The translations under genes and the position numbers were made by a program. This document shows positions 11,953-37,115 of a DNA stretch of 57,991 bases, piece by piece; position 1 is the first letter of the stretch; every line of letters starts with the position of its first letter. Where the stretch lies: positions 1-57,991 of the forward strand of contig NZ_JBBIAB010000029.1 in assembly GCF_039634785.1 (NCBI RefSeq), given 5' to 3'. Under the pieces are notes generated by a model. That model saw only the letters and a program-made list of their open reading frames with translations, was not told where the DNA came from and did not search any database. Origin of the DNA: Tistrella mobilis. GTDB taxonomy: Bacteria; Pseudomonadota; Alphaproteobacteria; Tistrellales; Tistrellaceae.

Positions 11953-12477
11953 ATGACCACAGAGCCCGCCGCCCCGGCCGCCCCGGCCACCCGACCGCCG
12001 CGGCCCCGCGGAGATATCTGGATCCAGCGTCTGCTGTTGATCGAAGCGGCCTTTTGCCTGGCGCTGGCGGTGACGTCGGTGAAGCTGATCCCGTTTCGCC
12101 GGCTGGCGGCCTGGTCGTCGCGCCGGCCCGAGGGCGCCCGGCTGATGCCGCCCGACACCACCGATCTGGAGGTGCTGCGGGCGGATGCGGACTGGCGCCA
12201 GTCCTGGCGCATCGGCCGGCTGGTGGCGGTCGCGGCGCGCAAGGTGCCGTTCAAGGCGGTCTGCCTGCCTCAGGCGCTTGCCGGGCAGAGCATGCTCAGG
12301 CGTCGCGGCGTGCCGGTGGAGATCGTCTACGGTGTGAAGCGTGATACCGAAACCGGCGGCATCGCCGCCCATGCCTGGCTGGAATATCGCGGCCGGGGGT
12401 TTCTGGGCCACGAGGTGGCGCCGGATCACACGGAAATCGCCCGCTTTCCCTCAGACCGCGCCCGAGGCCCGGAATGA
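11953..12477 (+). CDS. Lasso peptide biosynthesis B2-like transglutaminase-fold protein
   Basis: 174 aa. The C-terminal two thirds match the B2 (Transglut_core3) family: catalytic Cys104 in AVCLPQALAGQSMLRRRGV, then His140 in GGIAAHAWLEYRG, with an acidic residue near D158 completing a Cys-His-Asp triad. In lasso peptide pathways this protease removes the leader peptide of the precursor. Here no precursor, asparagine-synthetase-like cyclase or PqqD-like B1 protein was found in the neighbouring sequence, so it is an orphan. A stretch around residues 23-48 is hydrophobic and could associate with the membrane. Its real substrate may be another peptide. Confidence 0.75.
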   Translation: MTTEPAAPAAPATRPPRPRGDIWIQRLLLIEAAFCLALAVTSVKLIPFRRLAAWSSRRPEGARLMPPDTTDLEVLRADADWRQSWRIGRLVAVAARKVPFKAVCLPQALAGQSMLRRRGVPVEIVYGVKRDTETGGIAAHAWLEYRGRGFLGHEVAPDHTEIARFPSDRARGPE

Positions 12478-12514
12478 CCACGGCCGCCTTTCGTCAGGGG
12501 CATTGACGGATGAC

Positions 12515-12544
12515 TTGACATGCGGTTGCACCGGCGGCCATGCT
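12515..12544 (+). promoter_or_regulatory. Promoter of the leu leader
   Basis: TTGACA (12515-12520) and CATGCT (12539-12544) are 18 bases apart. A start point six to seven bases after the -10 box would coincide with the ATG of the leader peptide at 12551, making the transcript leaderless. Confidence 0.55.
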
Positions 12545-12550
12545 GCACAG

Positions 12551-12619
12551 ATGACGACCGCATCCTTCGCAGCCCTGCTGCCGGCCAACCTGCTTCGACT
12601 TCGCCGCCCGGCCTCCTGA
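12551..12619 (+). CDS. leuL: Leucine-rich leader peptide of leuA
   Basis: 22 residues: MTTASFAALLPANLLRLRRP and AS. Five of 22 residues are leucine, in two LL pairs plus one single, which is the mark of a ribosome-sensing attenuator peptide for leucine biosynthesis. It lies between a good promoter and leuA, followed by stem-loops at 12633, 12715 and 12815. No Shine-Dalgarno sequence precedes it because the predicted transcription start is at or beside the ATG; leaderless leader peptides are known from rhizobial trpL. Stalling at leucine codons would favour read-through into leuA. The amino-acid pattern is seen; the mechanism is inferred. Confidence 0.65.
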   Translation: MTTASFAALLPANLLRLRRPAS

Positions 12620-12632
12620 GAGGTCGGGTGAT

Positions 12633-12831
12633 CCGGCATGTCTGCCGGCCGAAGTGATCCAGCATCTGTCCGTCGTCTGAAGTCATCTCCCCCATGTGTA
12701 CCGCCATATCCAGACCACCGGCCCGTGCCGGTGGCGCCTTGCGACCTCGTCTCCACTCTCTGCATGTCAATGTCCGGGACTATCTGGCCCGGTTCGATCT
12801 CGCACGTCGACTTAGCGCCGGCGGCCGGCGC
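12633..12831 (+). promoter_or_regulatory. Attenuator region with successive stem-loops before leuA
   Basis: Perfect hairpins are CCGGCA/TGCCGG (12633-12648, four-base loop), CCACCGGC/GCCGGTGG (12715-12734, four-base loop) and GCGCCGG/CCGGCGC (12815-12831, three-base loop). An imperfect direct repeat (GTGATCCGGCAT, GTGATCCAGCAT) follows the leader peptide and could provide alternative pairing. The second hairpin is the likeliest terminator, though its T-run is poor. Apart from the leader, the 12478-12926 gap holds no gene. Confidence 0.5.
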
Positions 12832-12926
12832 AGCTGACGCCGATCGCCCGCATCCGAATGACGGCTGTCTCCGGCGGCCCAGGGCCCGCCGTACCCATAT
12901 GTCGTGCAGAGACGAGAGCTTTCTTC

Positions 12927-14471
12927 ATGTTGACCGCCCCGCAGACGAAATACCGCCCCGCCGCCACCATGCCCGACATGGCCGATCGGCAATGGCCCTC
13001 GCGCAGCATCACCCAGGCGCCGCGCTGGCTGTCCACCGACCTCCGCGACGGCAATCAGGCGCTGATGAACCCCATGGACGTCCCGGCGAAGCTGAAGCTG
13101 TTCCGGCATCTGGTCGCGATCGGCTTCAAGGAGATCGAGGTGGCGTTTCCGGCGGCCTCGGACACCGATTTCCGCTTCGTCCGGACGCTGATCGACGAGC
13201 GGCTGATCCCCGACGACGTCACCATTCAGGTGCTGACCCAGTCGCGCCCCGATCTGATCGCCCGCAGCTTCGACGCGCTGGAGGGCGTACCGCGGGCCTG
13301 CGTGCATCTCTACAACGCCATCGCGCCGGAATTCCGGCGGATGGTGTTCAATGGCGGCCGGGCCGAGGTCAAGGCGCTGGCGGTGGAAGGCACGCGGCAG
13401 ATCCTGGCCGAAATGGCGCGCCGGCCGGGCACGCGGTGGACATATCAGTACTCGCCCGAAACCTTCAGTGCCACCGAGCCCGATTTCGCGATCGAGGTCT
13501 GTGCCGCGGTGATCGATCTGGTCCGGCCGACGCCCGAGGCAAAGATGATCATCAACCTGCCGGCCACGGTCGAGGTCTCGACCCCCAATATCTATGCCGA
13601 CCGGATCGAGCATGTCTGCCGCACCATCCCCCGGCGGGATGCGGTGGTGATCAGCGTGCATCCGCATAACGATCGCGGCACCGGCGTCGCCGCGGCCGAA
13701 CTGGCGGTGATGGCCGGCGCGGAGCGGGTGGAGGGCTGCCTGTTCGGCAATGGCGAACGCACCGGCAATGTCGATCTGGTGACGCTCGCGCTCAACCTCT
13801 ACACCCAGGGCGTGGCGCCGGGGCTGGATTTCTCGGACATCGATGCCAGCGTGCGTGCGGCGACCGAGGCGACCGGCCTGCCGGTCCATCCTCGCCACCC
13901 CTATGCCGGCGACCTGGTCTTCACCGCCTTTTCGGGCTCGCATCAGGATGCCATCCGCAAGGGCTTCGCCGATTGGGAGCGGCGCAATACCGGCATCTGG
14001 GATCTGCCCTATCTGCCGATCGACCCGGCGGATCTGGGCCGGTCTTACGAGGCGGTGATCCGGGTGAACGGCCAGTCGGGCAAGGCCGGCGCCAGCTGGG
14101 TGCTGCAGCACACCCAGGGGCTGGAGCTGCCGCGCTTCGTGCAGATCGATTTCGCCCGCCGCCTGCAGCAGCTGGCCGACGAGACCGGCCGCGAACTCGC
14201 CGCCGCCGAAATCTGGGCCGCCTTCACGGATGCCTATATGGCGGGTGCCGGCCGTGCCATGCCCGACCGGCCCGATGCCGCCTGGACGGTGATGCGCGGC
14301 GAGGCCCATACCCGGCGCATCGACGGTGCGGCGGCGGGGGTCGCCGCCTATGTCGAAATCGGTGACGAGGCGGGGGCGAGGGCGATCGGGGTCGGCTTCG
14401 GCCGCGATCGCAGCGAGGCTGAAGCCCGGGCGGAATGTGCCGCGGCGGCGAAGGCCCGCATGGTCTGCTGA
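12927..14471 (+). CDS. leuA: 2-isopropylmalate synthase (yeast/actinobacterial type)
   Basis: 514 aa. It condenses acetyl-CoA with 2-ketoisovalerate, the first step of leucine synthesis. The catalytic/metal motifs are [16 protein letters not shown] near the N-terminus and the [11 protein letters not shown] motif near residue 250. The opening [19 protein letters not shown] and the RDGNQ motif point to the LeuA type-2 (yeast-like) subgroup, about 515-560 aa. The C-terminal 120 residues form the regulatory domain that usually senses leucine. ATG 12927 is chosen over an upstream in-frame ATG at 12858 because family similarity starts at [11 protein letters not shown]. Expression probably depends on the attenuator upstream. 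Confidence 0.92.
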
Positions 14472-36765: not shown

Positions 36766-37115
36766 GGGATTTTGAGGAGTCATCTGACGTTCACGGGTGT
36801 GGAGGATGATCTGCTGGCGCCGCTTGCGATGAAGGCTAGTGAAGGATGTCCAGACCACCATCGACTTCGCGGGAAGCCCCCTTTTACGCCGCAGGCGTCA
36901 CGCTCCTCATCCGGCGGATCGCCAGTGCAGGGTGAGTTTCGATTCGGGCTCTCAACAACCGATGAGACTCGCCATGCATCAGAGTTAGCGCAAAGCGCAT
37001 CGAATTTCTATGGATCTGCAACGATGATGTTCCGTGGCGCACTAAATCCTCTTGAATTGCAACATTCTGCGTGATATACGCATCGAACATAAGTTTTTCG
37101 CAACGAACCTCCGGG
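36766..37115. other. AT-richer boundary region before ietA, no gene seen
   Basis: About 350 bases with visibly lower GC than the surroundings and no convincing reading frame. A short minus-strand stretch (about 36785-36861) reads like coding debris, but no family was recognised. It may mark the left boundary of the transferred ietAS island and holds its promoter. Confidence 0.4.

Follow-up and report, generated by a model that had tools for sequence, protein, structure and literature searches.

A putative two-step leucine leader made of two related reading frames upstream of leuA in Tistrella mobilis and other Alphaproteobacteria

How does leucine reach a leuA gene whose product appears to lack the domain for allosteric control? 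This question is raised by a stretch of 57,991 nucleotides from Tistrella mobilis (contig NZ_JBBIAB010000029.1 of assembly GCF_039634785.1; hereafter the window), in which a short leucine-rich frame lies upstream of leuA. Here we report a comparative analysis which suggests, with a probability of about 0.5 and on the strength of sequence comparison, that the leuA mRNA begins with a leucine-sensing leader composed of two related units in a row, working as a two-step translational relay.

12927-14471, + strand: leuA, yeast-type 2-isopropylmalate synthase, 514 aa
12901-12926, + strand: ribosome-binding region of leuA, kept at 26/26 and 23/26 positions in the other Tistrella

The best model for the leuA product in a profile search was PRK03739 (738 bits), and its domains are HMGL and IPMS_D2. 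A domain search found no LeuA_dimer (allosteric) domain in this protein or in its orthologue from T. mobilis KA081020-065, so control by leucine may rest on RNA; the domain is present in the homologues of two relatives (L006 and L009). Elsewhere in the genome, contig C14 has a leuA of bacterial type (TIGR00973, score above the cut-off) and contig C12 a gene for citramalate synthase. In KA081020-065 the corresponding region lies on plasmid pTM2.

12515-12520, + strand: -35 box TTGACA; TTGACATG unchanged (8/8) in KA081020 and in G002, a different Tistrella species
12539-12544, + strand: -10 box CATGCT, 6 nt before the ATG of ORF1; 6/6 kept in KA081020 and G002
12551-12619, + strand: ORF1, putative leaderless leucine leader, 22 aa, MTTASFAALLPANLLRLRRPAS
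12593-12601, + strand: CTTCGACTT motif in ORF1 (Leu-Arg-Leu codons)

The original prediction had named a 22-residue frame with LL, LL and L and a promoter placed so that transcription starts at its ATG, and both are present. The Leu codons of ORF1 are CTG CTG, CTG CTT and CTT, the two boxes are separated by 18 nt, and +1 is presumed to be at or adjoining 12551. The promoter pattern, which was written after seeing the sequence, occurs once in the window (0.02 expected), and a stock sigma-70 scan did not call the TTGACA/CATGCT promoter of ORF1. ORF1 and the following 13 nt are identical in KA081020 and in G002 (82/82 each; in G002 69/69 and 13/13, with both hexamers intact). The promoter boxes and the leader thus stand out as conserved in diverged surroundings: between the window and G002 the 16 spacer bases agree at 11/16, the six bases before the ATG of ORF1 at 2/6, and the first 1074 nt of leuA are 92.5% identical, with 81.3% at third positions. 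This conserved placement of the promoter, with +1 predicted to fall on the ATG, supports a leaderless start, and as a short frame with Leu codons directly upstream of a leucine-biosynthesis gene ORF1 is a leucine leader in the broad sense.

Genus, family and order were each represented by three genomes, and the class was therefore sampled. The best 80 of 471 named loci were combined with 121 leuA-bearing genomes out of 387 from the class; G290, whose match starts at a contig end, was excluded. This gave 199 loci with the window and the two other Tistrella included, 198 of them with at least 150 nt upstream. A Leu-rich ORF, defined as an ATG ORF of 7-60 aa with at least 4 Leu in eight residues, was found upstream of yeast-type leuA in 125 of the 198 regions (reverse complement, 6), and 21 regions had two or more (reverse complement, 0). 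With leader ORFs chosen without regard to promoters, the best promoter lay 5-8 nt before the ATG in 40/80 alphaproteobacterial leaders (shuffles 3.6%), so that the predicted geometry recurs outside Tistrella, and in 22/33 beta-, gammaproteobacterial and other leaders (shuffles 2.9%); the control values were 2/61 for the starts of the second frame described below and 6/127 for leuA starts. The leaderless geometry was found in 0/10 leuA leaders of cyanobacteria. Among 94 hand-curated leaders CTT and CTA account for 245 of the 424 Leu codons; for comparison, the opening 30 codons of leuA contributed 110 Leu codons, of which 2 are CTT or CTA.

Two Leu-rich ORFs before leuA were also seen in betaproteobacterial loci of the genera Massilia, Herbaspirillum and Pseudoduganella (L007, L020, L022, L029, L071). 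Filamentous cyanobacteria (L013, L015, L040, L047, L048, L051, L083) have mutually similar Leu-rich ORFs before leuA, e.g. MFTKQLSLQVTSSLLSGLGLLLCLG.

The gene directly upstream of the leader brings up another role for ORF1.

11953-12477: lasso-B2-like gene (NCBIfam lasso_biosyn_B2, 73.6 bits); its product is a lasso-B2-like transglutaminase-core protein

As this gene adjoins ORF1, ORF1 might be the precursor of a peptide modified with the lasso-B2-like protein and have no leader role. We find this hardly credible: leader ORFs with a similar ending stand before leuA in many other genomes, and no lasso precursor or cyclase is among the 30 genes displayed for the neighbourhood of the KA081020 locus.

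A second frame, which the original prediction overlooked together with the signature that it shares with ORF1, lies between ORF1 and leuA; the stretch given there ends inside this frame.

12694-12837, + strand: ORF2, second leader, 47 codons
12808-12815, + strand: CGACTTAG motif in ORF2

The frame of ORF2 is open in all three Tistrella and ends, like ORF1, in CGACUU with a hairpin around the stop codon. In the window it has no clear Shine-Dalgarno sequence and its Leu codons are sparse, and among the three Tistrella its N-terminal half is poorly conserved and not kept as a peptide. Both frames are missing from the PLSDB gene table of KA081020, which is described as incomplete. In G002 (L003), ORF2 carries an 18-nt in-frame tandem duplication of CCTCGTCTCCACTCTCTG, the very segment that can pair with the leuA ribosome-binding region.

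12605-12630, + strand: hairpin 1, with the ORF1 stop codon TGA (12617-12619) in its loop; G-U pairs present
12633-12648, + strand: hairpin CCGGCA-TGTC-TGCCGG, 6 bp; 15/16 kept in G002
12598-12655, + strand: predicted closing stem of ACTTCG (12598-12603) with CGAAGT (12650-12655)
12746-12753, + strand: CTCGTCTC, perfect complement of GAGACGAG (12909-12916), upstream of leuA

Three perfect hairpins had been described behind ORF1. Those at 12633-12648 and 12715-12734 are perfect (the latter an 8-bp inverted repeat that is imperfect in KA081020); the inverted repeat at 12815-12831 also matches perfectly over 8 bp, but a single base separates its arms and full closure is therefore impossible. In folding models the hairpin with most meaning in the leader is the one at 12605-12630. 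The arm of the closing stem has an alternative predicted partner (GAAGTC, 12679-12684). Segments 12746-12753 and 12909-12916 form a candidate sequestering stem, with which a predicted pairing of 12757-12769 with 12900-12912 competes.

The ending common to both frames was characterized from an alignment of 30 ORF2 ends, chosen by eye out of 68 motif matches. In all 30, CGACUU is invariant and is followed by an 11-bp hairpin in which 92.1% of cells pair (shuffled 84.4%; slid versions 24-55%), a fraction inflated by the choice by eye. Changes on both sides were found in 9 of the 11 pairs, and 35 cells were changed on both sides (12.1 in shuffled alignments; 0/500); the number of further pair types was less striking (19, 16.6 shuffled; 33/500). 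The ORF1 stop codon falls into a hairpin loop, by a strict rule, in 36/91 leaders (4.5 shuffled). This hairpin too has many compensating pairs, and with swapped 3' arms its native mean stem length was reached in 0/1000 rounds.

A covariance model of the element (R1), from whose training the window was absent, was run on 387 genomes and matched 64 times at E<=0.01, in 58 of them. A position at most 400 nt upstream of leuA, on the leuA strand, was found for 51 matches, 25 in training genomes and 26 new. All 45 matches with E<=5e-4 are upstream of leuA, and the 13 off-site matches all have E>=5.9e-4.

12794-12858, + strand: best R1 match in the leader, ORF2 end, 13.8 bits
12582-12637, + strand: second-best R1 match in the leader, ORF1 end, 12.9 bits

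These two are the top two of 21 matches in a local, unfiltered search; the genome-wide search of the window's own genome gave 0 matches at E<=0.01, and the Tistrella copies are therefore divergent. No Rfam 15 family reached its gathering threshold in the window or in 17 relatives, and a match to ncS16 in the window (25.9 bits, threshold 48) was taken as chance. The pattern CTNCGACTTA, from which each of the window's two signature copies differs, occurs twice elsewhere in the assembly (reversed control pattern, 25). On contig C14, one of the two occurrences falls within the leader that precedes the bacterial-type leuA and has a frame ending in VIVILLGLALSLRLIGP; the signature is therefore common to leaders of both leuA types.

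The Leu/Ile/Val-rich frame before this bacterial-type leuA (L084, G000:C14, about 36774-36783) ends in LSLRLIGP with CTTCGACTTA, which is followed by a CCCCTGAGCG/CGCTCAGGGG repeat. Frames ending in LLRLTGP and LLRLIGP stand before similar gene starts in G196 and G268.

The invariance of CGACUU could also mean that a protein reads this motif with its hairpin and that the ORFs are secondary, as with the LEU element of Actinobacteria, for which such a reading is discussed (PMC1262725, as excerpted). This was weighed against the reading frame at 74 CGACTT sites located 45-260 nt from leuA, with recognised ORF1s excluded: the CGA-CTT frame meets a stop within 45 nt at 60 sites, the other frames at 9 and 38, the latter count being helped by CTTAG itself. 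This preference for one frame and the strong bias of the leader Leu codons to CTT and CTA both speak against protein recognition, which we judge to be very improbable. The peptide ends at these sites are often of the forms LRLSGGRRV, RLIGGR or RLTSGR, and the end of ORF2 in the window is alike.

An ORF2 was accepted where a stop within 48 nt and an in-frame start were present. Excluded by name were L004, L113, L117, L123, L052, L091, L102, L121, L145, L157 and L189, together with one L114 site, all of them duplicates or first leaders. ORF2 was thus recognised in 48 loci, with a doubtful start in some (L122, L124, L164), and in 43 of them it is preceded by ORF1. The 43 tandem loci are those of the window and G002, six named alphaproteobacterial MAG loci (L006, L009, L030, L032, L054, L073) and 35 class-sampled genomes, and with the window's own they carry 21 family labels among the sampled genomes. 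Four loci with R1 matches (L087-L090), for three of which a similar second ORF without CGACTT is listed, were left out of this count.

Complementarity between the segments was tested by swapping partners between loci of like GC content (10,000 permutations). The leucine-codon segment of ORF1 is more complementary to the stretch before ORF2 than permuted partners are (-17.20 native, -14.15 permuted, sd 0.56; 0/10,000, 43 loci), also when the ORF2 start is taken as the farthest in-frame ATG (0/10,000, 40 loci), and the leucine-codon segment of ORF2 is likewise complementary to the 30 nt before leuA (-18.59 against -17.00, sd 0.48; 3/10,000, 48 loci). Neighbouring controls were flat (ORF2 with -60..-31, 4606/10,000; ORF1 with leuA, 6745/10,000). 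Loci with a single leader (31) showed weak complementarity between that leader and the leuA region (505/10,000; control 2614/10,000), and 28 beta- and gammaproteobacterial loci gave no excess of complementarity between leader and leuA (1712/10,000). Clear single-locus cases are L073, L104 and L120. In the window the duplex of ORF1 with the ORF2 start is weak (-10.5, rank 37/43), and pairing of Leu codons with the leuA Shine-Dalgarno sequence, above permutations in alphaproteobacterial relatives, is not convincing there. When the ORF1 or ORF2 segment was blocked in partition-function folds, accessibility of the next start rose slightly, with borderline significance (p 0.058 and 0.063); in the window it did not rise.

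A leaderless leucine leader followed by hairpins calls to mind a classical transcription attenuator, in which the position of the ribosome on ORF1 would determine whether an antiterminator or an intrinsic terminator forms ahead of leuA. U-tract terminators occur in 17 of 94 leader loci, the three Tistrella included, as compared with 14 of 94 after shuffling. In 13 of the 17 a hairpin with a T-tract lies 10-49 nt after the ORF1 stop, and strong terminators stand 22-27 nt after the stop codon in L006, L009, L154, L156 and L171. Against this, there is no U-tract terminator in 12400-13000 or after ORF1 in the three Tistrella, and the classical scheme leaves ORF2 unexplained; we regard it as unlikely. 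What stands of the leucine attenuator originally proposed is a Leu-rich, apparently leaderless leader of leuA, by position and conservation; the classical terminator type is not supported.

The lack of an intrinsic terminator in the window would also fit Rho-dependent attenuation, in which Rho acts on a C-rich stretch when ORF1 and ORF2 are free of ribosomes and transcription stops before leuA. Positions 12681-12758 hold 34 C and 17 G, but a C excess is a weak sign, and we consider this explanation distinctly unlikely; it could also go along with a relay. The translational relay is favoured because complementarity exceeds that of permuted partners and because no intrinsic terminator was found in the Tistrella leaders, and relatives have about as many as shuffled sequence.

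From what the comparison with relatives has given, namely promoter geometry, codon bias, conservation of motif and hairpin, tandem order and above-control complementarity, we infer the transcription start, translation, stalling and relay logic as follows. RNA polymerase would start at the A of the ORF1 ATG, and ribosomes would bind directly at the 5' terminus of the transcript, needing no Shine-Dalgarno sequence. ORF2 would be the second unit, ending in the same way with Leu and Arg codons, CGACUU and a hairpin around the stop codon. With leucine plentiful, ribosomes would complete ORF1 and leave, its leucine-codon segment would pair with the sequence preceding ORF2, and that of ORF2 would pair with the leuA ribosome-binding region, so that leuA would be translated poorly; the leader RNA may additionally be lost to Rho. 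With leucyl-tRNA short, a ribosome stalled on ORF1 would free the ORF2 start, and a second ribosome stalled on ORF2 would free leuA. Most likely, the tandem leader thus makes ribosome stalling the switch that turns on leucine synthesis during a leucine shortage. More tentatively, the two frames may be described as paralogous leader ORFs, the first leaderless, that form a translational attenuator with two steps answering to the same signal, centred on a new RNA element and present in at least 21 alphaproteobacterial families.

The usual textbook picture of an amino-acid leader is that of a single ORF with a single terminator under its control. The enterobacterial leuL, the Leu-rich leader peptide of the leu operon, has a Shine-Dalgarno sequence and an intrinsic terminator, and resembles ORF1 in being a Leu-rich leader peptide of leucine genes. 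The ermA leader works as a stepwise relay with a Shine-Dalgarno start. According to excerpts of PMC8274638 and PMC12698558, ermA and ermB have two tandem leader peptides and the gene is controlled at translation; erm attenuators sense macrolides, whereas the leuA leader would sense an amino acid. The Salmonella leader before mgtCBR, as excerpted, also contains two short ORFs, mgtM and mgtP, one of which senses charged tRNA, but the two respond to different signals (ATP and proline) and control transcription, while the leuA leader ORFs bear the same kind of signature (PMC3641672).

The original prediction likened the leader to the leaderless trpL of rhizobia. A leaderless start is shared with trpL, which is established in Sinorhizobium meliloti and thus offers a leaderless attenuator ORF in an alphaproteobacterium, but rnTrpL, as the excerpt describes it, has one ORF, concerns tryptophan and is an attenuator sRNA with a functional peptide (PMC10117765). 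The nearest known case is instead the leuA leader of Actinobacteria. Excerpts describe the LEU element, in which a Leu-rich ORF stands upstream of leuA and its Leu codons base-pair with the Shine-Dalgarno sequence of that gene, and Leu-codon mutations in Streptomyces coelicolor that went against the prediction of classical attenuation, a protein being proposed instead (PMC1262725); LeuL1 of Streptomyces lividans is transcribed as a leaderless frame and has no typical Rho-independent terminator (PMC8079986, in excerpt). The Leu-rich ORF and, in S. lividans, the leaderless start and the lack of a typical Rho-independent terminator are shared, and Leu-codon/Shine-Dalgarno pairing may be; compared by description, the actinobacterial leader has one ORF and a pseudoknot, and the alphaproteobacterial one has two ORFs in a row, both bearing CGACUU and a hairpin around the stop codon. 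Excerpts of further papers list a leader peptide for leuA of Corynebacterium glutamicum (PMC3890552) and report leucine leaders in Epsilonproteobacteria (PMC3847290). No mention of leuA was found in the available part of a survey that reports other uORF motifs of Alphaproteobacteria (PMC8632094), and that of an earlier survey names an ilvB leader peptide and not leuA (PMC1273637). A literature search, mostly without subscription papers, found no report of tandem leucine leaders of alphaproteobacterial leuA; a single leader may have been predicted earlier.

This study adds to the known leaders a conserved, structured RNA element without an Rfam 15 match in the sequences searched. If the relay is true, the element would belong to a cascaded form of leader logic for an ordinary nutrient signal, acting on translation starts and widespread, and the tandem arrangement makes it testable why a cell would check leucine twice.
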